A stretch of DNA of 64,000 nucleotides. It comes from Sphingobacteriaceae bacterium (GTDB lineage: Bacteria; Bacteroidota; Bacteroidia; UBA7662). The position numbers and the translations under genes are program-made. Shown in pieces: positions 8,134 to 22,163 of this stretch; within the stretch, counting starts at the first letter, position 1, and every line of letters starts with the position of its first letter. Below the pieces are notes generated by a model, which was not told the origin of the DNA, made no database searches, and was given only the letters and a program-made list of their open reading frames with translations. The DNA lies in assembly GCA_030682795.1 (NCBI GenBank), contig JAUXNJ010000044.1, positions 1-64,000 of the forward strand, in the 5' to 3' direction.

Positions 8134-11100
8134 ATGAAAAAACTTTTACTTGTTTTGTGTATGCTGTTTGTCGCGATAAGCGGGCATGCGCAATTAAATC
8201 TATTCACTTCGCCCCCTTTAACAGGTGGTAATGGAGCTGGCTCTGGAGGAATTACCTTTAATTTACGCGCCAATTCTGCAATTTTGGTGGATAGTATTTT
8301 CGTTGCCTTATCAGGTACCCTAAATGCTCCTACCGAATTAGAAGTTTGGTATTCAACTACTCCAATCAATGGCAATCCGGCTGTAGGTACAAATCCGGCC
8401 TTTGTACAGTTACTTCCTAATCAACCGACAACTGTTGGTCAAGCTGGTACAACTGCGGCAGGTGGTTTTGTATTTTCGCGCATCGCCATGCCAGGTGGAC
8501 CATTGCTCATCCCGGCTGGAAGTGTGTACGGTTTTTATGTAGGCGTACCCACTGGCTCTAACGGCTCACCTGTTTACCAGACTTTTACGGTTGGAAGCGT
8601 GGATACTTTTTTCAATTCATTTGCAACCATTTATACTGGAACGAACGTAGGGTACGGCGGTCCACGCCCAGGGCACGTAAATACACCGCGCCAGTTTGTT
8701 GGCGGGATTTCTTATATCCCTGCCAGTGGTAGAGACGCGCGTTTAGCTGGCTTGATTTCACCAGTCACACTTTCGATTGGTAGCAACACAGTTACCGCAC
8801 GTGTGCAAAATGCAGCTGCTGACCCCATTGCTCAAGTAGATTTTGGATATCAATTTAACAACAATCCGCCGGTGTTAAATCCGGGTGTTGCGGTTTTTCC
8901 AGCCTTGAGTCCTGGTCAAAACTTCGACCATACTTTTGTTGCGCCTATCAATATACCTGCCAATGGTACTTATCAAATTAGAGTATGGGCAACCAATGCC
9001 AATGGTTTAGGAGCTGATAACAATACGGCCAATGATACCTTAACGGTGAACTTGTGTACGGGTTTGTCGGGCGCCTACACCATAGGAGGACCTACGGCTG
9101 ATTACCCAACTGTTCAAGCCGCCGTTGCAGCTTTGAGTCAGTGTGGGGTCACCGGACAAGTAAACTTTTTAATTAATCCAGGTACTTATATTGGCAGTCA
9201 CACCATTCCCAATTTCCCGAATGCGGGAGGTTTTGGAGTTACTTTTGCCAGTGCAACAAGTTTGGCTTCAGATGTAATTTTAATTCACGACACGGCTGCT
9301 GCAACAGCTACCAATCGTACACATTTCACCGTCAATACGAGCACACGTATTTCCTTCCAAAACTTGACCCTCCGTCGTACCATCAACCCAGGTGCCGCAG
9401 GTCAAGGCATTATTGTGTTCTCAAATCCAAGCTCCAGCGGCGAAGTGATTGGTTGTAATGTGATTGAATTGCCACAAACCAACAACACCTTTAATAATGG
9501 TATTATTTACCGCGGCAGCAATGGTTTGTTTATAAACAACACTTTTAATGGCTTTTATTATGCGATTTGGTTGGATGGACCTGCTTCTAATACCTTCGCC
9601 AATACAAACAGTATAATTTCTAATACTTTTGTTAATAACGTGTATCGTTCAGTGTATGCGCTGAACCAAGCCAACGCGGTGGTTGCTAGCAACCAGTTTA
9701 CTAGTTTTGTAGGTACATCAACAGTCGGTGCTGCGGTTTGGACTGCCAATAATATCAATACCGAAATATCTTCAAACAATGTTTCTGGTGCTATGAGTGC
9801 TTACGCGTTCCTCATAGTAAATCCTAATGCTGATACCCTGGTACCTACCAACGCCAACCGCATTTACAACAATGTGATCAATGGCACACAAGCCCCTACT
9901 ATTACGGGTACTACAATGGTCGTGAATCCGATTCATATTACAGGTTCGTTTAGTGCTTCTGTACTTACTCCAATGAACCCACGTGATGCCATTGAGGTAA
10001 AGAACAACACGGTGAGGTATACGCTTACAACCACCAGTGCCTCTACCATTCAAGCAGGATTCTACCTCACAGGAGGTTCAGTAGCTACGCCCTTCTGGTC
10101 GCGTATTGTAGTACGGAACAATCATTTTGAGATAAATCCATTGACTGGTAACCTGCCAACTGCTTTTCGTTTGTTTAGATTGGTGGATCAATCGCAGCTT
10201 GACAGCTTGCAAAGCTCCAATAACAACTTTGTGCTTGGTGGTACAGTGCCTCCGAATATGTTCAGGGTAAATACGCCTGCTTTGGATTTTGCAACGCTCG
10301 CAGCTTGGCGCACAGCGACTGGAAAAGACACCATGAGTTTGAGCTTAACGCCCAATTTCTTGTCATCTAGTTTGCTCGTTCCAACGAATATCGCTTTAGA
10401 TAATAAGGGTATACCTGTCAGCTATATCACATCTGACGTTACTGGTGTAGCTAGAAATGCAACAACACCAGATATTGGTGCTTACGAGTTCACGGGCTCG
10501 CAGTTTGCGCAAATTTCTTTAACTGCCCTTGGTGATACTTTGCCAGTGGCCTCGCGTCCGTTGTTGGTGAATATCCAAGATACGGCTAGCAGCATTACAG
10601 CTGGCACGGCGCGTGTGTTTTATAAAAAGACTTCTCAATCGACCTGGTTAGTAGATAGCTTGCCAACGATAACGGGTAACAATTATGCCTTCACCATCAA
10701 CCATACGGCCTTGGGTGGAGTTGCAGTATTCGACACCATTCAGTATTACGTGGCTGTAAGCAGTGCTTCAGGTACCGTTACAACAGCCCCGTTGGGTGGA
10801 ATAGGTATTCATCTTTCCAATGCTGTTCCACCTCCAAGTTTGTTTAGCTACCTCATTTTAACAAACATATCAGGTACGTACCGCGTGGGTACGAGTGGTC
10901 CGGCTGATTTCGCTAATCTAACAACAGCCGTGAACTTCATCAACAGTGGTTTATTTACAGGTTCAGCTACTTTCTTGCTCATTGATACTTTGTACAGCGC
11001 TGGTGAAACCTTCCCAATGGTAATCAATAATCGTCCTGGTTTGAGCGCCGTAAATACATTAACAATTCGTCCCGACAGTACGCGTTCAAATGTTTTGATT

Positions 11101-14100
11101 CAGGGTACTTTCTCTGGTAGTAATGGATTGATTGTGTTGAATGGCGTTAATCATTTCCACCTCAATGGTGCTAACAGCGCTTCTGGAACCAGCCGCAACT
11201 TGACCATACGTAGCACAAGTGTAGCTGACAACTCCACAGTTATTTTGCTCCGTTCAAGAAACATTGCTCCTGTACGCCATGTAACCATCAGCAACGTAAA
11301 TATTACGGGTGGTTCAAATACGGTAACTTCTACCTTTGGTATTCATGCTACAAATGCAACCATCACGACTTTTGCCCTCGCCGATTCACTTCAGAATTTG
11401 ACCATCAGGAACGTAGCTGTGCGTCGTGCATATTATGGTATTTTCTTACGTGGGGCTACAACAGGCACCAATAATGGAACCTTGATTGAGAATTCTCAGA
11501 TTGGTTCTTCGGATACGTCTCAGTTTGTGATTTTCCGTGGTGTAGATGTTACAAATACCTTTAATCTGCGCATTCGCAATAACCAGGTGTTTAACTTAGT
11601 GTCTACAAGTGCTACCTCTCAGGCAGCCATTGAAGTGGGTACAAGTCCGGGTGCGGTTATCGAACGCAACCGTATTTGGGGCGTGAAAAACCTCAATACT
11701 GGTGGCTGGGGTGCATGGGGTGTAAACGTGCTTTCTGGAGACAGCGTTCGCGTGTTGAACAATGTAATTTATGATTTACGTACGCTCAACTACTCTAATA
11801 CATCAAACACCTTTAACGCCTTTGGTATTCGCATTACGGGTGGTACCAATCACAGGATTCATTACAATAGTGTGTATTTGTATGGTGCCTATACCAATGT
11901 ATCAACCGCTGGGGCAGCAGCAGCAGCATTTGGTATCACGAGTACTTTAGTGACTGGTGATGTACGCAATAACATTTTTGCGATAGACGCATCCTCAACC
12001 AGTACAGGCATTGCCACTTTCATGGCAGTTTGGTTGCCGGCTAGTTACAATTTTGCCAATTTGACCTTGAATAATAATGCTTATCATGTTCCGTCCAATG
12101 CACAAAGCTTTGTGGGTAAACTTGGTACCACGGCAGCATCAGGCAACTATGTTTCGGTGGCAGATTGGAAGGCTATTTCTTCGGTAGGTAATCCTAATAA
12201 TGATGCGGCCTCTGTGCCTCCTACCGGCAATGCTTTGCCTCCATTTACTTCGCTCACCGATTTGACCATTCCAACTGGAACCCTAACGCCTATCGAATCG
12301 GGTGGTGTAGTAATTGCAGCCTTGGGCACACCGAATACTGATTTTAATGGTACAAACCGTCCTGGCGGTACGGGTATTGCACCTGATATGGGAGCCTATG
12401 AATTCGACGGCATAGGTGGTACCGATTTGTTCCCACCGATCATTGATTCCTTTTTGGTAACGCCTCGAAGTAACCAGTGTGTACCTACTAACCGAACCAT
12501 TAGTGTATTTGCGCGCGATAATGCAGGTGGAAGAGGTATTGACACCGTTCGGGTAAATTATACCATTGCAGGTACTGCACAAACGCCTATTGTACTTACA
12601 CGTACGGCGGGTACGGCAATGGCGGGTACTTGGACAGGTACGTTGCCGGCGGCAACTTCAGCCAACGTATTGGTTGCGGCAACTGTAATTGCCCGTGACA
12701 GCAATGCCAACTTCACACAGGTTATTTCTATGGGATCGTTCCGTGATGATTACATTGTGCCAAATGCTGGAAACGATACAACCATTCTGGCTGGTGATAC
12801 AGCCACCTTGCGTGGTACTGGCTCTAGTTTCTTGGGTACTTTGGGTACGGGTACTTTGGTTAACACCACTACCACATATCCAGCAGGCTATGGTAACTGG
12901 TATTGGGGTGCTCGTCAGCAATTCCTCATTTTGGCTTCAGAATTAACTGCGTCGGGCATTGCTCCGGGTGCATTAACTTCCTTGGCTTTTGATGTTGTTA
13001 CACCTTCTGGAACTGCGCTTCAAAACTATACCATCAGCTTAGGTGCTACAACGCAAACTTCCTTAACTGCGTGGGTAACGCCGGTAACACAAGTGTTTAC
13101 AACGCCAAGTTTCTTAGATACGACAGGATGGAATACCCATACCTTCCAAACGCCGTTTAACTGGAATGGTGCAAGTAATATTGTAGTGGAGGTTTGCTTT
13201 AACAATAGCTCTTTTACCAACAATTCAATTACCCGCATGACAGCCACGCCTTTCACTGCGTCGTATTGGTACATTTCGGATGCGGCTGGTGTTTGTGCCA
13301 ATACTCTCAATACAAGTAATAGCGTAAACCGTCCGAACATGCGCATTGGTGGGGGCTATCCTGCTACTTGGACCAATTTGACAACTGGTACTGTAGTGGC
13401 CTCTAACCAAGCAGTAGTGCGAGTAACACCGGTAGTTACTACCAGCTATGCCTTGACTTTAACAGACAACATTTGTAGCAAATCTGATACAGTAACCGTA
13501 TTTGTTACGGCAAACAACATCAGCGACATTGGTATGGAAGCCATTCTTACCCCTGCTCCTACGGCTACGCCACAGCTGAACCAGGCCTATGTGGTGAAAG
13601 CAGTGATTCGCAATCATGGCAACGTACCTGCCACTGGTTTTGACGTGGCATTCCGGGTAAACAATGGTGCTGAATTAAATGCAAACGCTATTTCACGCAC
13701 CATTCAGCCGAATGATACCATTCACCACACCTTTACCCAGTCATGGACTCCAACGAGTGGTGGTGATTTGAGATTATGCGCTTATACCCGTTGGGCGAGT
13801 GATACCAATGCATCAAACGATACTTCATGTGTGCAGTTTACGGCTGTAGGTGTTGAATCGGTAAATCATTTGTTGAGCCGTGTGTATCCAAATCCTGCAG
13901 ATCAGTTCGTTCTGTTTGATTTTGGCACCAATGAAGGTCAAGGTACTTTAGAGTTACGTGACCAGTTGGGTCGTGTAGTTCGTTCGCAGCACATTGACTT
14001 GTCAACCAATGAACGTCATGAGATCCGGACCGATAATTTGGCGGTAGGGGTGTACAACTATCGTTTTATACTCAAAAACCAGGTACAAAACGGCCAAGTG

Positions 14101-14115
14101 ATCATCAGTCGCTAA
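8134..14115 (+). CDS. Giant secreted protein with two beta-helix regions and T9SS sorting domain
   Basis: The 1993-residue exported protein has a signal peptide (1-20, ending GHA-Q) and an N-terminal beta-sandwich region (about 20-300). A first right-handed beta-helix (about 310-780) opens with DYPTVQAAVAAL and closes with PDIGAYEF near residue 780. A second (about 910-1420) opens with ADFANLTTAVNFI and closes with PDMGAYEF. These closing motifs match the choice-of-anchor Q type. Fibronectin/CARDB-like domains follow (about 1425-1910), then a T9SS type A domain beginning RVYPNPADQF. No catalytic motif is visible, so it is probably a polysaccharide-binding or adhesive surface protein; a polysaccharide lyase cannot be excluded. 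Thr, Asn and Ser are very abundant. Confidence 0.8.
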   Translation: MKKLLLVLCMLFVAISGHAQLNLFTSPPLTGGNGAGSGGITFNLRANSAILVDSIFVALSGTLNAPTELEVWYSTTPINGNPAVGTNPAFVQLLPNQPTTVGQAGTTAAGGFVFSRIAMPGGPLLIPAGSVYGFYVGVPTGSNGSPVYQTFTVGSVDTFFNSFATIYTGTNVGYGGPRPGHVNTPRQFVGGISYIPASGRDARLAGLISPVTLSIGSNTVTARVQNAAADPIAQVDFGYQFNNNPPVLNPGVAVFPALSPGQNFDHTFVAPINIPANGTYQIRVWATNANGLGADNNTANDTLTVNLCTGLSGAYTIGGPTADYPTVQAAVAALSQCGVTGQVNFLINPGTYIGSHTIPNFPNAGGFGVTFASATSLASDVILIHDTAAATATNRTHFTVNTSTRISFQNLTLRRTINPGAAGQGIIVFSNPSSSGEVIGCNVIELPQTNNTFNNGIIYRGSNGLFINNTFNGFYYAIWLDGPASNTFANTNSIISNTFVNNVYRSVYALNQANAVVASNQFTSFVGTSTVGAAVWTANNINTEISSNNVSGAMSAYAFLIVNPNADTLVPTNANRIYNNVINGTQAPTITGTTMVVNPIHITGSFSASVLTPMNPRDAIEVKNNTVRYTLTTTSASTIQAGFYLTGGSVATPFWSRIVVRNNHFEINPLTGNLPTAFRLFRLVDQSQLDSLQSSNNNFVLGGTVPPNMFRVNTPALDFATLAAWRTATGKDTMSLSLTPNFLSSSLLVPTNIALDNKGIPVSYITSDVTGVARNATTPDIGAYEFTGSQFAQISLTALGDTLPVASRPLLVNIQDTASSITAGTARVFYKKTSQSTWLVDSLPTITGNNYAFTINHTALGGVAVFDTIQYYVAVSSASGTVTTAPLGGIGIHLSNAVPPPSLFSYLILTNISGTYRVGTSGPADFANLTTAVNFINSGLFTGSATFLLIDTLYSAGETFPMVINNRPGLSAVNTLTIRPDSTRSNVLIQGTFSGSNGLIVLNGVNHFHLNGANSASGTSRNLTIRSTSVADNSTVILLRSRNIAPVRHVTISNVNITGGSNTVTSTFGIHATNATITTFALADSLQNLTIRNVAVRRAYYGIFLRGATTGTNNGTLIENSQIGSSDTSQFVIFRGVDVTNTFNLRIRNNQVFNLVSTSATSQAAIEVGTSPGAVIERNRIWGVKNLNTGGWGAWGVNVLSGDSVRVLNNVIYDLRTLNYSNTSNTFNAFGIRITGGTNHRIHYNSVYLYGAYTNVSTAGAAAAAFGITSTLVTGDVRNNIFAIDASSTSTGIATFMAVWLPASYNFANLTLNNNAYHVPSNAQSFVGKLGTTAASGNYVSVADWKAISSVGNPNNDAASVPPTGNALPPFTSLTDLTIPTGTLTPIESGGVVIAALGTPNTDFNGTNRPGGTGIAPDMGAYEFDGIGGTDLFPPIIDSFLVTPRSNQCVPTNRTISVFARDNAGGRGIDTVRVNYTIAGTAQTPIVLTRTAGTAMAGTWTGTLPAATSANVLVAATVIARDSNANFTQVISMGSFRDDYIVPNAGNDTTILAGDTATLRGTGSSFLGTLGTGTLVNTTTTYPAGYGNWYWGARQQFLILASELTASGIAPGALTSLAFDVVTPSGTALQNYTISLGATTQTSLTAWVTPVTQVFTTPSFLDTTGWNTHTFQTPFNWNGASNIVVEVCFNNSSFTNNSITRMTATPFTASYWYISDAAGVCANTLNTSNSVNRPNMRIGGGYPATWTNLTTGTVVASNQAVVRVTPVVTTSYALTLTDNICSKSDTVTVFVTANNISDIGMEAILTPAPTATPQLNQAYVVKAVIRNHGNVPATGFDVAFRVNNGAELNANAISRTIQPNDTIHHTFTQSWTPTSGGDLRLCAYTRWASDTNASNDTSCVQFTAVGVESVNHLLSRVYPNPADQFVLFDFGTNEGQGTLELRDQLGRVVRSQHIDLSTNERHEIRTDNLAVGVYNYRFILKNQVQNGQVIISR

Positions 14116-14350: not shown

Positions 14351-16975
14351 ATGAAGCAGTTTTTTAACATTCTGATTTTGGTAATTGGTATTTTACCAGC
14401 ACATGCACAACAGGTTGTTCGTTGTTACACAACTGAAATGCAGGAGCAATTGCGTCAGCAGGGACAATGGCCTGAATCCGATGTGCAATTTGAGCGCTGG
14501 ATAGCCGAACGCATTGCATTGATGCAGGTACAAGGGGGCGTGGAGTCGGAATATGTGCTACCAGTAGTGGTGCACATTATTTATCAAAATGAAAATAACC
14601 CTTGGAATATTAGTAATGCACAGGTACTTTCTCAAATGCAGGTTTTAAATGAGGATTTTTTACGAACCAATCCTGATACTGTAAATACCCCGCCGGCTTT
14701 TTTACCCGCGGCAGTAAATACCTCGATAAGTTTCTGTTTGGCGCAACGCGACCCGCAGGGAAATCCTACTACAGGCATCATTCGTCACGCTTTCCCGAAT
14801 ACGACGGCCTGGAGCACCAATGCTTTTAACAGTACTGTAAAACCAGCTACCATTTGGGACCCAACGAGGTACCTTAACGTATGGATTGCGAATTTAAGTG
14901 GTGGCGTATTGGGCTATGCGCAATTCCCTACAGGTTCGGGTTTGCCAGGATTGAGTGGCGGCACGAATGCCAATACAGATGGCATCGTTCTTTTGTATAC
15001 GTCGGTAGGTAGGCCACCCTTCAATCCGTTCCCAGGTGTATACAATCGCGGACGTACTGCGACGCATGAAGTTGGACATTATTTAGGACTACGACATATT
15101 TGGGGAGATGGGGGTTGTAGTGTAGATGATTTTTGTGCGGATACACCTCCATCGGATGCAGCCAATTTTGGTTGTCCGGTTACACATGTTTCTTGCGGGA
15201 ATGTAGACATGGTGCAGAATTATATGGATTATACGGACGATGCCTGTATGAATATTTTTACTGCCGACCAAAGAACCCGCATGATAGCGGTGATGCAAAA
15301 TAGTCCGAGACGCCTGACACTGCCAACATCCTTGAGTTGTTTGCCACCTGTGCAACGACCCATGGCAGGCTTTTTACAGACCGCTGACACCATATGCACA
15401 GGCGGCCTGGTAAGCTTCACCGACCTGAGTACAAATCAGCCAAGTGCGTGGTTATGGACTTTTGTAGGAGGCACGCCGGCAACAGCCACCACTGCAAATC
15501 CAAGCAATATAAGGTATGATAGTTCGGGTGTTTTTAAAGTAACGCTTATTACAACCAATACAGCCGGAAGCGATACTTTAGAAAGGCAATTTGCGGTGGT
15601 GGTGCAGCCTGCCCTAAACGCTGTATTGGATAGTTTAGCCCCAATATGTGTGAACCAAGCTCCGCGCATACTTACATCTGGTTTACCAAGGGGAGGTGTT
15701 TACAGCGGACCAGGAGTGGTTAGTGATAGCGTATTTAATCCTGCTGCAGCCGGTGTAGGTACCCATGCCATCATATATACTTTACCAGGTTGCGGCAGCA
15801 GTGATACGGCCAGTATAACCGTGTTTCAGGCGCCAGCGCCCGACTTACAGTTGGCAACGCAAAGCTTTTGTGTAAACGATAGCGCGGTGCTTTTACAAGC
15901 TACGCCTCCAGGAGGTGTTTTGAGCGGAGCTGGTGTATCGGGCAATACTTTTTCTCCGGCCCAGGCTGGTGCAGGCACGCACGCCTTGGTTTATAGTCTC
16001 AGCAATGCCGTAGGTTGCGTGAGTACCGACACAATTGTAGTGGTGGTGAATGCTTTGCCTCAAGTTAATTTGCCAATTTTGGTACCGGTTTGTGTGGCTA
16101 CACCCTTTGTGGTATTGCCCCCTGCTACACCAGCTGGTGGAAGCTGGGCAGGCCCCGGTGTTTCTAATGATACCTTGTATCCTGCTTTGGCAGGTAGTGG
16201 CCTCGTTTCTTTAACCTACACTACGCCAGCTGCGGCACAAACAGGTTGTGTAAACAGGGCCATAGCAACAATCAATATTAGTCCAGTACCTGTGTTAAGT
16301 TTTACACCGGTAGCCCCATTATGTGTGAGGGGCAATAATTTATTGCTCAACCAAGCCAATATTGGAGGGGGTAATTATAGTGGACCTGGTGTGACTTTTG
16401 GAATTTTTAGTCCTGCGCAAGCCGGTGTAGGCACCCATACCATTCAATTTACGGGGAACAGTGGGGGTTGTTCGGTGGCTGGAAGTTATACGGTACAAGT
16501 GTTTGCAGCGCCCGCGGCTGAAATTGAAAATGGAATGAATGATAGTTTACGGTCAAGAAATATGGCCGATAGTTATCGATGGTATTTAGATGGGCAATTG
16601 CTTGTTAATGAAACCAGTCGCAGTCTTCGGCCACAAACGAGTGGGGTGTACAGCCTTGAGCTGGAGGAAAATAGCTGTGCTTCGTTTCGCAGTAGTGATT
16701 TTGCTTACTTTATGACCTCGGTTCAAGAGGGAAGTACTACAACTTTCAGCGTATATCCGAATCCCTCAAGCGGGTTGTATGTATTTGAGACGCGTCAGGC
16801 AGTTGATAGGATGTATGATTTGCAGATCACCGATCTTCAGGGTCGTGTGTTGCAACAGGTCAGCAGCAGTGCAGCCCAGTTTGAAATAGACTTACGTGGC
16901 GTTTCTGCGGGTGTGTATTTACTGCGTTATAGCAGTGGCGCAAACGTAAGTTGGATGCGCTTGGTGAAGCACTAA
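14351..16975 (+). CDS. Secreted M43 (pappalysin-like) metalloprotease with T9SS sorting domain
   Basis: The 874-residue exported zinc protease has a signal peptide (1-20, ending AHA-Q). Its M43 catalytic domain (about 70-330) carries the zinc motif HEVGHYLGLRH (H239, E240, H243, H249) and the Met-turn region NYMDYTDDACM, both typical of M43B enzymes. A PKD domain follows (about 335-420), then four copies of a ~70-residue module built around YSGPGV and AGVGTH (about 425-720). The same module occurs in the S8 protease upstream. The T9SS type A domain starts VYPNPSSGL near residue 795. The stop is only 5 bases from the stop of a decayed, convergent dxs tail. Confidence 0.9.
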   Translation: MKQFFNILILVIGILPAHAQQVVRCYTTEMQEQLRQQGQWPESDVQFERWIAERIALMQVQGGVESEYVLPVVVHIIYQNENNPWNISNAQVLSQMQVLNEDFLRTNPDTVNTPPAFLPAAVNTSISFCLAQRDPQGNPTTGIIRHAFPNTTAWSTNAFNSTVKPATIWDPTRYLNVWIANLSGGVLGYAQFPTGSGLPGLSGGTNANTDGIVLLYTSVGRPPFNPFPGVYNRGRTATHEVGHYLGLRHIWGDGGCSVDDFCADTPPSDAANFGCPVTHVSCGNVDMVQNYMDYTDDACMNIFTADQRTRMIAVMQNSPRRLTLPTSLSCLPPVQRPMAGFLQTADTICTGGLVSFTDLSTNQPSAWLWTFVGGTPATATTANPSNIRYDSSGVFKVTLITTNTAGSDTLERQFAVVVQPALNAVLDSLAPICVNQAPRILTSGLPRGGVYSGPGVVSDSVFNPAAAGVGTHAIIYTLPGCGSSDTASITVFQAPAPDLQLATQSFCVNDSAVLLQATPPGGVLSGAGVSGNTFSPAQAGAGTHALVYSLSNAVGCVSTDTIVVVVNALPQVNLPILVPVCVATPFVVLPPATPAGGSWAGPGVSNDTLYPALAGSGLVSLTYTTPAAAQTGCVNRAIATINISPVPVLSFTPVAPLCVRGNNLLLNQANIGGGNYSGPGVTFGIFSPAQAGVGTHTIQFTGNSGGCSVAGSYTVQVFAAPAAEIENGMNDSLRSRNMADSYRWYLDGQLLVNETSRSLRPQTSGVYSLELEENSCASFRSSDFAYFMTSVQEGSTTTFSVYPNPSSGLYVFETRQAVDRMYDLQITDLQGRVLQQVSSSAAQFEIDLRGVSAGVYLLRYSSGANVSWMRLVKH

Positions 16976-17156: not shown

Positions 17157-17191
17157 TTGGGCTTTTAAGCCCTTGCTTTCTTGTATATTCG
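17157..17191 (+). promoter_or_regulatory. Candidate promoter and palindrome upstream of the six-gene operon
   Basis: TTG (17157-17159) and TATATTCG (17184-17191) resemble -33 and -7 elements. Between them, GGGCTT-TT-AAGCCC (17159-17172) is a compact palindrome that could be an operator. The start codon of the first gene is 55 bases downstream. Confidence 0.35.
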
Positions 17192-17246: not shown

Positions 17247-17492
17247 ATGAAAATCAAACAGAATTTGGCAATGAGCGATACCGGGTTTTTGTTCAACCCC
17301 GGTAATGGCGACTCCTTTTCAGTAAATCCTATTGGTCTTGAAATCATACAACTGATAAAAAGTGGTCAGGATGCAGCAGCCATCAAAGGCACTTTGCTCG
17401 AGGCCTATGCAATTGATAGCGATACGCTGGAAAAGGACATTTATGATTTTTTGAATACGCTGCGCCGTCATAAGTTAGTTCATGAAGCGTGA
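17247..17492 (+). CDS. PqqD-like small protein
   Basis: The 81-residue protein matches PqqD-type folds in pattern. An N-terminal strand pair contains F-L-F-N-P-G-N-G-D-S-F-S-V-N-P-I-G-L-E-I-I, followed by helices ending in an acidic, amphipathic C-terminal segment (D-I-Y-D-F-L-N-T-L). PqqD proteins hold a peptide substrate and present it to a modifying enzyme. No radical SAM gene is nearby, so the partner here is more likely the ATP-grasp enzyme encoded next, whose start overlaps by 11 bases. I chose the ATG at 17247 because upstream codons in this frame add only a poly-Phe-like stretch before the conserved part. It is the first gene of the six-gene operon. Confidence 0.7.
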   Translation: MKIKQNLAMSDTGFLFNPGNGDSFSVNPIGLEIIQLIKSGQDAAAIKGTLLEAYAIDSDTLEKDIYDFLNTLRRHKLVHEA

Positions 17493-18528
17493 GCTTACCA
17501 TCGCTGTCAGCGGCTTGAATGCCATTGACAGTCCCGGTCCGGGCATTGCCGTGATCCGAGCGCTCAAGGAAAGTACACGTTATGACATACGCATTGTGGG
17601 CTTGAGCTACGAGGCCTTAGAGCCTGGTTTATACATGCGTGATTTGGTAGCCATCAGCTATCAAATACCGCTGCCCGCTGCGGGTCAGCAAATACTTTTT
17701 GATCGCATTGCCTGGATTCATCAGCAGGAGCAAATCGACTTCATCATTCCTAATTTTGATGCTGAGTTGTTTAATTTCATCAAGCTAGAAAAGCGCTTGA
17801 AAACGGAGTTGGGCATCCATATGTGCTTACCAACAGAGCGTCAATTCGAAGCCCGCCAAAAGGCAAATTTGTACGATTACGGCGTAGAACATGGCATTAA
17901 GGTTCCAAAAGCAAAGTTGGTTTACAGTCCCAAGGACATTTACAATTTGCATGAGGATTTTACTTTTCCTTTAGCGGTTAAGGGCAAGTATTACGAGGCC
18001 ACCATTGCCTACAACGTAGAGCAAGCCCTAGCTGCTTTTTATAAATTGAGCGCCAAATGGGGTTTGCCAATCATTGCCCAAGAATTTGTGAAAGGCTCGG
18101 AGGTAAATGTAACCGCTCTTGGCGACGGGTTAGGAAATACCATTGGTGCGGTGCCTATGCGCAAGCTTTATATTACAGATAAAGGCAAGGCCTGGGCAGG
18201 CATTACGCTAGATGATGAGCAGTTGCTGGAAATGACCAAAAAGCTCATCTCTGCTACTCGCTGGCGGGGTGGTTTGGAGTTGGAGATCATACGCACAGAT
18301 GAAGACGAATATTACCTCTTAGAAATCAATCCACGCTTTCCTGCTTGGGTTTATTTGGCGAAGGGAGCCGGACAAAATCATCCTGAAGCGCTTGTGGCCA
18401 TTGGTTTAGGAGAGGAGGTTGCTCCTTTCAGTCAGTACGACATCGGAAAGCTGTTTGTTCGATACAGCTGGGACATGATTGTAACGCTTGAAGATTTCCA
18501 AAAAATTTCTACTACAGGGATATTATAA
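17482..18528 (+). CDS. ATP-grasp ligase, CarB-like
   Basis: The 348-residue protein has a pre-ATP-grasp domain (about 1-110) and an ATP-grasp domain (about 120-310). Visible motifs are a Lys in AVKGKYYEA, Gln-Glu in IIAQEFVKGSEVNV, and metal-binding E281 and N283 in LLEINPRFPAW. These match the CarB/biotin-carboxylase branch of ATP-grasp ligases. Such enzymes activate a carboxylate with ATP and join it to an amine, thiol or carboxylate. The acceptor cannot be read from sequence. Overlap with the PqqD-like gene suggests a peptide or protein-bound substrate, and the decarboxylase 9 bases downstream suggests that an amino acid is attached or processed. No signal peptide is present, so it is cytoplasmic. 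Confidence 0.75.
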   Translation: MKRELTIAVSGLNAIDSPGPGIAVIRALKESTRYDIRIVGLSYEALEPGLYMRDLVAISYQIPLPAAGQQILFDRIAWIHQQEQIDFIIPNFDAELFNFIKLEKRLKTELGIHMCLPTERQFEARQKANLYDYGVEHGIKVPKAKLVYSPKDIYNLHEDFTFPLAVKGKYYEATIAYNVEQALAAFYKLSAKWGLPIIAQEFVKGSEVNVTALGDGLGNTIGAVPMRKLYITDKGKAWAGITLDDEQLLEMTKKLISATRWRGGLELEIIRTDEDEYYLLEINPRFPAWVYLAKGAGQNHPEALVAIGLGEEVAPFSQYDIGKLFVRYSWDMIVTLEDFQKISTTGIL

Positions 18529-18537
18529 AATAGTAAG

Positions 18538-19893
18538 ATGAAAAAGACCTACGAAAGTCCCATGATTACCCCGTTGCACTCAGGCTTGATGAACAAGTTT
18601 GGTACGCGACGTAATTTTGAGCCTATGACCCACATTGATGGGGTGGCGGTAAAGGATTTGTTAGCAACCTTTGGGAGTCCGCTTTTTGCTTTTAGTGAAC
18701 GCAGCATTCGTGAAACTTACCGGGATGCGGTGCGTGCTTTTACAACACGCTATCCTAAAGTGCAATTTGCATGGAGCTATAAAACGAATTATCTGAATGC
18801 CATTTGTCAAGTTTTTCACAGCGAAGGAGCTTGGGGAGAGGTGGTATCTGGCATGGAATATCAAAAGGCCTTACAAAATGGGGTGCCGCCTTCTCGGATT
18901 ATCTTCAATGGCCCTGATAAAACCAACGACGAGCTCCGAATGGCTGTTGAAAATCAATCACCTATCCACATCGATCACCTCGATGAATTGTACAGATTGA
19001 TTGAGATTGCACGCGCCTTGGGTAAAAGACCCCAAGTGGCCATTCGAGTGAACATGGATACCGGGGTGTATCCCATTTGGGATCGTTTTGGCTTTAACTA
19101 TGAAAATGGTAGTGCCTGGGATGCGATCAATAAGATTATACTCACCGATACGCTTGATTTAATGGGATTGCATTGCCACATTGGAACGTTTATGTTGAGC
19201 ACCAATGCCTATGCCATTGCAACCGCAAAAATGTGTGAGTTGGCCAGAAGCTTGCAAGCCAAGCATGGCAAAAAAATAGCTTATATCGATATGGGTGGCG
19301 GATTTGCATCCAAAAACACCTTAAAAGGCAGCTATATGCCTGGTGCAGATACCAGTCCAAGCTTCGATGATTATGCTGAAGCCATTTGCACCGCCATGCT
19401 CAATGCAGGTTTTGAAGCCGACGCGCTACCCTTATTGGTGCTTGAAACCGGGCGGGCCTTGATTGACGAGGCAGGCTATTTATTGGGTTCGGTACTGGCC
19501 AACAAACGCTTGTCAGATGGCCGTAGGGCCACCATTTTGGATTTTGGCGTGAATGTGCTTTTTACAGCCTTTTGGTACGACCATGATGTGTATCCCGCGC
19601 AAGCTTTTGGGGCACATGCCGAAGAATCGGTGGTTTATGGGCCGCTATGTATGAACATAGATGTGATTCGAGATAACGTTTCACTTCCGCCCTTGCAAGC
19701 TGGTGAGCAGTTGGTAGTGTGTCGGGTGGGGGCTTACAACATCACCCAAAGCATGCAGTTTATCAGCATGCGACCAGCGGTGGTATTGATTGACGAACAG
19801 GGAAAGCCACATCTTATTAAAAAGCGAGAAACTTTACAAACCATTGAAATGGACGAGGCCATGCCTAGTTATCTCATGCCCAAGCCGAATTAA
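18538..19893 (+). CDS. Fold III PLP-dependent decarboxylase, diaminopimelate-decarboxylase-like
   Basis: The 451-residue enzyme resembles LysA-type decarboxylases. PLP Lys is K82 in WSYKTNYLNAI, the barrel histidines are H212 and H214 in GLHCHIGTF, the phosphate-binding loop is GGG at 253-255, and ETGRALIDEAG follows. C371 lies in YGPLCMNID, and GAYN begins a C-terminal motif before SMRP. It should remove a carboxylate from the D-centre or alpha-carbon of an amino acid or conjugate. The first ~35 residues extend beyond the usual LysA start. Its place in an operon with an ATP-grasp ligase and a PqqD-like protein argues against plain lysine synthesis. Carrier-linked amino-acid decarboxylases such as BtrK belong to the same fold and offer a precedent. 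Confidence 0.8.
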   Translation: MKKTYESPMITPLHSGLMNKFGTRRNFEPMTHIDGVAVKDLLATFGSPLFAFSERSIRETYRDAVRAFTTRYPKVQFAWSYKTNYLNAICQVFHSEGAWGEVVSGMEYQKALQNGVPPSRIIFNGPDKTNDELRMAVENQSPIHIDHLDELYRLIEIARALGKRPQVAIRVNMDTGVYPIWDRFGFNYENGSAWDAINKIILTDTLDLMGLHCHIGTFMLSTNAYAIATAKMCELARSLQAKHGKKIAYIDMGGGFASKNTLKGSYMPGADTSPSFDDYAEAICTAMLNAGFEADALPLLVLETGRALIDEAGYLLGSVLANKRLSDGRRATILDFGVNVLFTAFWYDHDVYPAQAFGAHAEESVVYGPLCMNIDVIRDNVSLPPLQAGEQLVVCRVGAYNITQSMQFISMRPAVVLIDEQGKPHLIKKRETLQTIEMDEAMPSYLMPKPN

Positions 19894-19907: not shown

Positions 19908-22163
19908 ATGTTAAAAAAAGCAGATCTAGACGAGGTAGTGGATGGCGTATTAAATAGCTACGGTCAAATTTTGTTCGTAGACAAGCCCCGCTACAGCCGT
20001 TGGTTGCTATTGGTGACTATGTTTTTTCCGTTTTCTGGGATCAGCGGTCTGTATGCCGTATTGGTTAGCCACGGCTGCGCCCGCTTGTTGGGCTTTGATC
20101 GGCAATTGATTAGTTCGGGTTTTTTAGGATACAATGCACTCATGACGGGGATTGTTTTGGGTGGTTATTTCAATTTGAATGCAGCTTTAATCGTCATCCT
20201 TACCCTGGCCTCTTTGTTGACGCTGTTCATTACCCTTTGGTTTCGAAAAGTGCTTTATGACAAAAATTTGCCTTTTTTGAGTCTGCCCTTTTTAGCGGCT
20301 GTATGGACGATGCTTTTGAGTGTGCGTGGCTACAAATCGCTTGCCTTGAGCGATGCTGGGATTTATACTTATAACGAGCTGGCTTATTGGGGGGGATTAG
20401 GATTGGTACGTTGGTATGAATGGCTTCAACAATTACATATTCCAGGCTTTTGGGATGTTTTTTTCAGGTCGATGGGCGCCATATTTTTTCAGTACAATTT
20501 GCTGGCAGGAGTGATCATTACCCTGGTTTTGTTGTGGCATTCACGCATTGCCACGGTGTATGCGTTTTTAGGCTTTTTAACCGGCTACTACTTTTTTCGT
20601 TTCGTAGATGGAAATTTTAATGAGCTGCATTACAGTTATATAGGCTTTAATTTTATTCTCACTAGCATTGCCTTAGGTAGTTTTTTTCTGGTGCCTGGTT
20701 TTTGGGCCTTGTTGGTGAGTTTCTTGGCTGTTCCGATGACTGCCATACTCATCAGTGCATTTACAGGCTTGTTTTATTCGGCTCAATTGCCGCTTTATTC
20801 CTTGCCATTTAACCTGGTGGTACTCATGATGATTGTGGTGTTGCGCCAACGGTGGCAAGCAAGCGGACCGCAATTGGTAGTCGATCAACAAGGACAGCCA
20901 GAAAAAAACCTCTACAGTTTTCAAAGCCGTGCGGTTCGATTCAAGCATTTGTATTGGTTGCCGATTCAACTGCCTTTTTTCGGTCGTTGGCGGGTAAGTC
21001 AAGGGCATAGTGGCGACATCACGCATCAAGGTGCGTTTGCATGGGCTTTAGATTTTGATGTGGTTGATAAACATAGCAAAACTTATAAGGGAGAGGGCTT
21101 TGAGTGTAGCGACTATTATTGTTACGACAAGCCTGTATTGGCGCCTGCTGCTGGTTGGGTGGTGCAGCTCATTGATGAAATTCCAGACAATGATATTGGC
21201 CAGTCTAACCTCGAACACAACTGGGGAAATACTTTGGTAATCAAGCACCTCGAGGGTCTGTATAGTAAATTGAGTCACCTCAAAGCCGGTAGTTTTTCGG
21301 TGAAACTAGGCGATTTTGTACAAACGGGAGAAGTAGTAGCGCGGTGTGGAAGCAGTGGACGGTCGCCGGAACCACATTTGCATTTTCAAATGCAAGCAAC
21401 TGCTTTTATAGATGCGCCAACCCTATGGTATCCTATTGCGCAGTTTTTGAAAATAGCAGATCAAAAAACCGAACTGTTGCATTTTACCATTCCTCAAGAA
21501 CGTGAAGTTGTTAGTAGGATTGAAACAGTAGCGATAGCGCGAGATGCCTTTGGCTGGCAACCCGGGCAAACCATAACGGTAATGGCAGAAAATAAACTCG
21601 GAGAAATTGAGCAGTTTGTATGGAATGCCGGCATTGATATGGCCAATACGCGCTATTTGTACTGTGAGCAATCGCAAAGTACCCTTTGGTACATTGCCAG
21701 CGATACCAATATGATGTGTACTACTTTTAGGGGAGACACCACATCGGCTTTACATGCCTTTTTTATTGCTTGCCAGCATCTTTTATTGGCCGATTTGCCT
21801 GATCAGTGGCGAAACGATGAGCCAGAATTGCCTCAGTTGCATCCAGGTGCTTGGCTATGGCTACAGGATTTGCTAGCACCTTTTTTCCGATTTTTACATA
21901 CGGGTTACACCAGTAATAGTCGGGTGACTGAGGTTGGAGTTGCTGGTCCTCAGGCCATGGAAATACTATTTGAAGCCTGGATTCGACTAAGTTTAAAAAA
22001 ACAAGAAGCTAAACCATACAGCAGCTTGGAGGCATCCAAAGGCTTTCGTTTTTCGCAGATTAGCGGCAAAATCAATATTGTTTCGGCAGCAAATGGCCTG
22101 CCATTACTTCGAGAAATTAGCTTTGAAAAACATCCCAAATGGTGCGTATTGCAATTTATTTAG
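19908..22163 (+). CDS. Urea-transporter-like channel fused to an M23 peptidase domain
   Basis: The 751-residue protein combines two families. Residues about 25-310 form a urea transporter (UT) domain with the internal duplication intact: the pore signature LPxxSLPF occurs at about 122-129 and again at 294-301, and a G-Y-N / G-F-N motif precedes each. Residues about 345-500 form an M23 (LytM/lysostaphin-like) domain with H373, D382, H457 and the HLH motif at 490-492. This supports zinc binding and peptidoglycan or peptide cleavage. The last ~250 residues match nothing I recognise. UT channels carry small polar solutes across the inner membrane; how the peptidase relates to transport is unknown. 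The 3' end overlaps the next gene by 25 bases. Confidence 0.8.
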   Translation: MLKKADLDEVVDGVLNSYGQILFVDKPRYSRWLLLVTMFFPFSGISGLYAVLVSHGCARLLGFDRQLISSGFLGYNALMTGIVLGGYFNLNAALIVILTLASLLTLFITLWFRKVLYDKNLPFLSLPFLAAVWTMLLSVRGYKSLALSDAGIYTYNELAYWGGLGLVRWYEWLQQLHIPGFWDVFFRSMGAIFFQYNLLAGVIITLVLLWHSRIATVYAFLGFLTGYYFFRFVDGNFNELHYSYIGFNFILTSIALGSFFLVPGFWALLVSFLAVPMTAILISAFTGLFYSAQLPLYSLPFNLVVLMMIVVLRQRWQASGPQLVVDQQGQPEKNLYSFQSRAVRFKHLYWLPIQLPFFGRWRVSQGHSGDITHQGAFAWALDFDVVDKHSKTYKGEGFECSDYYCYDKPVLAPAAGWVVQLIDEIPDNDIGQSNLEHNWGNTLVIKHLEGLYSKLSHLKAGSFSVKLGDFVQTGEVVARCGSSGRSPEPHLHFQMQATAFIDAPTLWYPIAQFLKIADQKTELLHFTIPQEREVVSRIETVAIARDAFGWQPGQTITVMAENKLGEIEQFVWNAGIDMANTRYLYCEQSQSTLWYIASDTNMMCTTFRGDTTSALHAFFIACQHLLLADLPDQWRNDEPELPQLHPGAWLWLQDLLAPFFRFLHTGYTSNSRVTEVGVAGPQAMEILFEAWIRLSLKKQEAKPYSSLEASKGFRFSQISGKINIVSAANGLPLLREISFEKHPKWCVLQFI

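Follow-up and report, generated by a model that had tools for sequence, protein, structure and literature searches.

A urea transporter-M23 peptidase fusion and its conserved operon partners in Bacteroidota

The window analyzed here is a stretch of 64,000 nt from a Sphingobacteriaceae bacterium (GCA_030682795.1, contig JAUXNJ010000044.1, positions 1 to 64,000, forward strand). It contains a packed operon in which a PqqD-like gene is followed by the genes of an ATP-grasp ligase, a PLP decarboxylase, a protein joining a urea transporter (UT) domain to an M23 peptidase domain as the fourth member, a TPR/barrel protein, and a TPR protein (Table 1). The ATP-grasp gene overlaps the PqqD-like gene by 11 nt, the start codon of UT-M23 lies 14 nt past the decarboxylase stop, the TPR/barrel gene overlaps the UT-M23 gene by 25 nt, and the TPR gene overlaps its predecessor by 4 nt. 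The listed open reading frame of the PqqD-like protein opens with a TTG at 17181, and its relatives start at the methionine at 17247. Scans for sigma-70-type promoters and terminators gave results no better than shuffled sequences. Directly upstream of the operon, 14351-16975 (+) encodes a protein of 874 aa that carries the metalloprotease motif HEVGHYLGLRH and ends in a sorting-like tail; among the loci compared, it stands upstream of the operon in the window only. A secreted, repeat-containing protein of 1993 aa, also with a sorting-like tail at its C-terminus, is encoded at 8134-14115 (+). In one genome group (L058, L054, L059, L060, and others), a secreted sorting-type protein of ~280 aa is often found just upstream of the PqqD-like gene. 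One upstream cluster (cluster 6) was rejected as a shared gene because its members were joined by a short C-terminal sorting-type domain and not by orthology.

Table 1. Operon genes and domains of the UT-M23 protein in the window
Feature	Coordinates	Strand	Basis
PqqD-like protein, ~81 aa	17247..17492	+	Pfam PqqD, 47.8 bits (cut-off 23.4); 31-row alignment
ATP-grasp ligase, 348 aa, PRK12767-like	17482..18528	+	Pfam ATPgrasp_Ter and ATP-grasp_3 above cut-off
Alanine-racemase-fold PLP decarboxylase, 451 aa, FigC-like	18538..19893	+	Best solved relative 7kh2; conserved residues
UT-M23 fusion protein, 751 aa	19908..22163	+	Translation, Pfam, structure model
UT channel domain, aa 12-311	19941..20840	+	Pfam UT, pore-residue alignment
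M23 metallopeptidase domain, ~aa 349-540 (H373, D382, H457, H490, H492)	20952..21527	+	Pfam, alignments, structure comparison
C-terminal beta-rich domain, ~aa 541-751, outside assigned families	21528..22160	+	Fold comparison
Exported TPR and probable outer-membrane beta-barrel protein, 370 aa	22139..23251	+	TPR in family; hydrophobic N-termini; barrel by sequence pattern
Exported TPR protein, 201 aa	23248..23853	+	TPR_2, 66.5 bits (cut-off 27)

Translation confirmed what a sequence-only reading of this gene had described: one frame of 751 residues whose sole stop is terminal, both UT signatures (LPFLSLPF at residues 121-128 and LPLYSLPF at 294-301), and the zinc motif H490-L-H492. The Pfam UT profile matches residues 12-311 with 180.6 bits (cut-off 25), and Peptidase_M23 matches residues 407-497 with 55.6 bits (cut-off 28.7); the latter profile matched all 11 fusion members checked. 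In a profile search of the genome, the fusion is the only UT match, and M23 matches occur in seven places including the fusion (eight rows, two of them in one frame). An AlphaFold2 model built from 11 sequences (pLDDT 78.5, pTM 0.71) aligned with solved urea channels over ~310 residues with Z-scores of ~35-36. The comparison with 9j22_A (Z 36.1, rmsd 2.4, 310 residues aligned) indicates a UT fold with two inverted halves. The model aligned with M23 domains over ~120-140 residues (Z ~13), and the predicted structure thus supports both domains proposed from the letters.

The C-terminal region, first estimated at ~250 residues, does form a further domain, and this domain covers ~210 residues past the M23 domain rather than 250. 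It had no Pfam match and no PDB sequence match. Modeled alone as residues 505-751 (pLDDT 64.9), it gave no Foldseek match below 0.001. With the same model of pLDDT ~65, VIA-align returned weak rows with a best Z of 7.1, which are mostly half-barrels of the LolA, LolB, RseB, MucB, and YmcC type (Lol-type rows, Z 4.8-6.4) together with vitellogenin-type proteins. The fold comparison proposed for this region has yielded at most a weak half-barrel-type likeness and no assigned family. In one genome (G255, locus L068), the UT-M23 frame has 532 aa and ends after the M23 domain, indicating that the C-terminal domain is dispensable in evolution.

The fusion of a UT with a zinc peptidase is a real and widespread bacterial protein. 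It was present in 27 of the 296 Bacteroidota genomes of our first set (G005 and G255 among them), and a contig scan using peptide patterns taken from the window protein found 10 further relatives, all Bacteroidota by their titles. A second set of 60 nearer relatives, of which 53 were new and seven overlapped with the first set, had the fusion in 14 more genomes. The whole tally is 41 of 349 distinct Bacteroidota genomes, in a sample weighted towards the relatives of the window, with a partial fusion in a 42nd genome (G301) and the 10 further contigs. The two congeners of the window in the second set lack the fusion, so its spread is patchy. Other phyla were covered by one contig scan and a plasmid search rather than systematically, and in the plasmid search the query coverage stayed below 80% for every record. 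A tree built from 35 fused UT domains, eight stand-alone Bacteroidota UTs, and the urea channel dvUT of Desulfovibrio vulgaris separates the fused domains from the others by a branch with 100/100 support. The 35-row UT-M23 alignment excludes L067 (split frame) and L068 (short frame) by its length limit. L066, the duplicate locus of G124, was left out of all alignments. That genome has one copy of the operon at either end of a single 3.74 Mb contig (L065 and L066), which probably reflects the overlapping termini of a circular chromosome.

The neighbors of the fusion are conserved as well. In the 37 first-set loci (L032-L068, in fusion or split form), the decarboxylase gene is upstream in every case and the ATP-grasp gene in 36, the exception being L032, which is cut by a contig end. 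The PqqD-like gene is upstream in 31 loci and was not found in the other six, one of which is again L032. The exported TPR gene accompanies the fusion in 32 loci. The barrel-type gene belongs to one family in 19 loci, and another 13 have a gene of a different family, mostly directly behind the TPR gene. In the 14 held-out loci, the ATP-grasp and decarboxylase genes are both upstream in 12; of the remaining two, G298 has a cut contig and G337 is split. In the latter, one contig carries the PqqD-ATP-grasp-decarboxylase genes and a second carries UT-M23 and a 515-aa protein with a TPR match (L139, L151). At a search threshold of E ≤ 1e-40, the ATP-grasp protein occurred in exactly the 27 of 296 first-set genomes bearing UT-M23. 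It occurred in 16 of the 60 second-set genomes, namely 15 with UT-M23 (window included) and G301, whose contig ends inside the UT-M23 match. Therefore, the two proteins occur together in all 42 genomes having either one, among 349 distinct genomes (G301 by its fragment), and the co-occurrence holds even where the two halves of the operon lie apart (G337).

We inspected the partner enzymes for hints of their chemistry. The ATP-grasp protein keeps its metal-site Glu, Asn, and Arg, with E281, N283, and R285 among the columns shared by at least 95% of 36 sequences. The best solved relative of the decarboxylase is the N-citrylornithine decarboxylase 7kh2 (E 2.7e-56), and at least 95% of 37 sequences share its K82, H212, C371, and M372. 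It scores 227.5 bits against the LysA model TIGR01048 (cut-off 297.9) and 211 bits against the FigC/FslC model NF041039 (cut-off 500), below the cut-off in both. Another frame exceeds the lysA cut-off in 24 of the 27 fusion genomes, so the operon decarboxylase is not the lysine enzyme of the cell. In FigC, the position next to the catalytic cysteine has a methionine instead of the acidic residue that binds a free side-chain amine, since this amine is acylated (PMC7857480). The operon decarboxylase resembles FigC/FslC in having Cys-Met (C371-M372) where ODC, ADC, and DAPDC have an acidic residue and in keeping the equivalents of FigC T327 and Y331. It is unlike them in that I374 and Q404 of the window enzyme take the places of H357 and R387, which contact citrate, and its operon partner is an ATP-grasp enzyme instead of an NIS synthetase. 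Because Cys-Met is kept and the citrate contacts are replaced, the substrate is likely a conjugated, non-citrate amino acid.

A similar logic of a small protein, a ligase, and a PLP decarboxylase of a bound amino acid is found in the BtrI-BtrJ-BtrK set of butirosin, in which BtrJ is an ATP-grasp ligase. BtrK decarboxylates an amino acid bound to BtrI (PMC7857480). The small protein of our operon differs in being PqqD-like and not an acyl carrier, and the butirosin set is without a transport part of this kind. We rejected the PqqD-like protein as an acyl carrier on the ground that its G-D/E-S/T-F motif varies at the serine. No conserved RiPP-like precursor peptide was found in the 2.5 kb before the ATP-grasp gene at 36 loci, where groups of frames appeared only in sister or close loci. 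As for the last two genes, TPR repeats are present in 11 of 15 members of the TPR/barrel family, whose N-termini are hydrophobic, and the sequence pattern makes this protein a probable outer-membrane beta-barrel. One gene replacing it has a porin match below the cut-off. A kinship of the barrel protein with YaiO was not supported (hhalign against E. coli YaiO, probability 0.6% over 20 columns).

The pore residues of the UT domain were compared with those of urea channels. In dvUT, the outer site So is formed by E187 and F190 and the middle site Sm by T130 and T294 (PMC4357013). The window UT has Q20 at the inner site, A191 at the dvUT E187 position, and S125 and S298 at the positions of the filter threonines. 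The E187 position is Glu or Gln in all eight stand-alone Bacteroidota UTs and in none of the 49 fusions. The 35 fusions of the first alignment have Ala (20), Leu (9), or Ser (2) there, then Val, Ile, Phe, and Tyr, and the 14 held-out fusions have Ala (9), Ser (4), or Gly (1). The inner-site Gln is mostly kept, in 28 of 35 fusions and in 11 of 13 readable held-out rows, one of the 14 rows being gapped at positions 20 and 125. Both middle-site threonines are kept in the eight stand-alone UTs. In the 35 fusions, one of these positions is Ser in 32 and the other is Ser in 17 and Val in 12, with Thr remaining in one and three fusions, respectively. The held-out rows retain Thr in 6 of 13 and 7 of 14, so the middle-site change is not general, and we rejected Thr-to-Ser as a family-wide mark. 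In these alignments, the loss of the outer-site Glu/Gln is the sole pore change that holds in the held-out set.

We propose, with a probability of about 0.4, that UT-M23 is an inner-membrane channel-peptidase in a dedicated biosynthesis-and-export operon that makes a small amide. Judging from the protein families, the ATP-grasp enzyme would first form an amide bond to an amino acid in the cytoplasm, with help from the PqqD-like binder. The FigC-like PLP decarboxylase would then act on the conjugated amino acid, which its pocket suggests by having no acidic residue to bind a free side-chain amine. The UT domain with its altered outer site would be the inner-membrane pore for the small product. 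The M23 domain, tethered at the pore mouth and probably on the cytoplasmic side, would free or trim the product entering the pore, and the exported TPR and TPR/barrel proteins would convey it across the periplasm and the outer membrane. This proposal starts from the gene set, the co-occurrence, the intact catalytic residues, the altered pore, and the charge pattern observed for the operon, and from these we infer the chemistry, the direction of flow, and the substrate of the M23 domain. The sequence-only reading, which noted that a UT-M23 link has no textbook explanation and that the channel may pass a small product, overlooked the operon; the second of these remarks fits a biosynthetic operon. 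Several observations count against the biosynthesis-and-export reading: the PqqD-like gene was not found at six of the 37 loci (one of them cut by a contig end), no conserved precursor peptide was seen beside it, and UT pores, ~2-3 Å wide (PMC10541013), are narrow for an amide conjugate. More specifically, a cytoplasmic-face M23 domain may release a new small amide directly into a repurposed urea pore as the exit of a pathway common to many Bacteroidota. We hold this idea only tentatively and consider it somewhat unlikely. Such an enzyme-coupled pathway was not described in the papers searched in the open-access literature.

The role of the M23 domain depends on its activity and its membrane side. 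H373, D382, H457, H490, and H492 are each shared by at least 95% of the 35 fusions and by all 14 held-out ones. H457 and H490 align with H216 and H247 of Pgp3, which were mutated in 6jn7 and 6jmz, and H373 and D382 are putative zinc ligands by conservation and fold range only. The M23 domain is thus likely an active enzyme. It shares the LytM fold and the HxH zinc motif with known M23 peptidases (Campylobacter Pgp3-like 6jmx, lysostaphin, LytM, DipM), and both catalytic histidines align with those of Pgp3. Unlike these, it has a first zinc motif spaced H-x8-D, is tethered to a channel with a predicted cytoplasmic location, and has haloarchaeal and Thermus M23 proteins among its nearest plasmid-borne relatives. 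UT proteins have both ends inside and cross the membrane ten times. The outside and inside residues of HsUT-B are consistent with this topology (PMC10541013). Lys and Arg are more frequent in the inside loops than in the outside loops in all 35 fusions (mean 9.6 vs 2.5), the eight stand-alone UTs, and dvUT. The excess on the C-terminus side is also seen in the 14 held-out fusions (one a partial row), giving 49 of 49. No eleventh membrane helix was found before the M23 domain in the 35 fusions by a hydropathy scan past residue 320, where no stretch unambiguously reached the value of a typical membrane helix (highest 1.72). The charge pattern predicts a cytoplasmic M23 domain, and we consider this location probable, rather than a periplasmic one. 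Of two stand-alone Bacteroidota relatives of the M23 domain, L029 carries a signal peptide and L031 a lipobox, which counts against a cytoplasmic M23 domain at the pore mouth and suggests that it may be periplasmic. The Thermus and Thermomicrobium relatives have membrane segments.

A periplasmic location would suit an envelope-spanning machine, in which the M23 domain opens peptidoglycan for a TPR/barrel conduit and the UT domain is an anchor or a channel. Two partners are exported, one of them probably an outer-membrane barrel, the M23 catalytic residues are intact, stand-alone Bacteroidota proteins related to this M23 subgroup are exported, and the C-terminal domain weakly resembles periplasmic LolA/RseB-type folds. 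Nevertheless, we judge this machine unlikely, since the charges put the C-terminus inside in all 49 fusions, as in stand-alone UTs, and no extra membrane helix was seen in the 35 fusions scanned. Likewise, the separate M23 frame of G005 has no signal peptide, although this frame is possibly a frameshift product. The plasmid-borne relatives of the fusion M23 include proteins of haloarchaea, Thermus, and Thermomicrobium (L110, L111, L072, L112). Haloarchaea are not known to have murein, so this M23 subgroup may cut something else. The earlier idea that the peptidase opens the wall is therefore weakened by the charge pattern and the missing helix and is kept alive by the secreted stand-alone relatives.

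The flow could also run inward, with a small amide or murein peptide entering via the barrel and the UT domain, the M23 domain cutting it, and the ATP-grasp enzyme and decarboxylase processing the pieces. UT pores are passive and two-way, and a cytoplasmic M23 domain would encounter imported peptides. However, import seems improbable to us because a ligase with a PqqD-like binder fits synthesis better than breakdown, and UT pores are too narrow for a murein peptide (PMC10541013).

That the protein simply takes up urea and carries its peptidase domain incidentally is very improbable. The protein does share with dvUT and the SLC14 channels UT-A and UT-B a clear family match, the fold of two inverted halves, the LPxxxxPF signatures, the membrane orientation by charge, and, in most fusions, the inner-site Gln. 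It differs from them in the outer-site Glu/Gln, replaced in 49 of 49, in filter threonines that are often Ser, Val, or Ala, in its junction to an M23 domain, in lacking a urease partner, and in its separate clade. Against the equivalog model urea_trans_yut (TIGR03441), the UT domain scores 120.6 bits, below the cut-off of 274.6. Urease alpha exceeds its cut-off in one of the 27 fusion genomes, on a different contig from the fusion, and in five of the eight genomes with a stand-alone UT, four of which have it within ~5 kb of the UT gene. The Fisher p of 0.0009 for this contrast is only a guide, because related genomes are not independent. Together with the fixed tie to biosynthetic genes, the urease and pore-residue results led us to reject urea uptake as the main role, and the fusion is probably not a channel for urea nutrition. 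The earlier suggestion of a possible new substrate for the UT part agrees with the loss of the outer-site residue and the near absence of urease.

Finally, two genes joined by a hidden frameshift or an assembly error, the danger named for the single frame, can be ruled out, as the same fusion is one open frame in many other genomes and the fused UTs form a single clade, the exception being G005, in which separate UT and M23 frames overlap at a T7 run. At that site (L067, ~8960-9060), sequencing error, a slippage site, and decay are indistinguishable.

We found no published account joining a urea transporter with an M23 peptidase, ATP-grasp, or PqqD, or joining ATP-grasp, PqqD, and diaminopimelate decarboxylase, in the open-access literature (subscription papers were mostly outside these searches); one general review came up for PqqD and ATP-grasp together with decarboxylases at large. 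The UT-M23 architecture may well be listed already in domain databases. The urea-channel fold is familiar from free-standing pores for urea and its close analogues, and M23 peptidases are known as wall enzymes. If the biosynthesis-and-export reading is true, a biosynthetic pathway would have adopted a urea-channel fold, and an M23 peptidase could serve as the partner of a channel. Because the six genes form a fixed set, the question can be tested by gene deletion and metabolomics. The operon would probably represent a new natural-product family, present in about one in eight of the sampled Bacteroidota genomes (42 of 349, weighted towards the relatives of the window).
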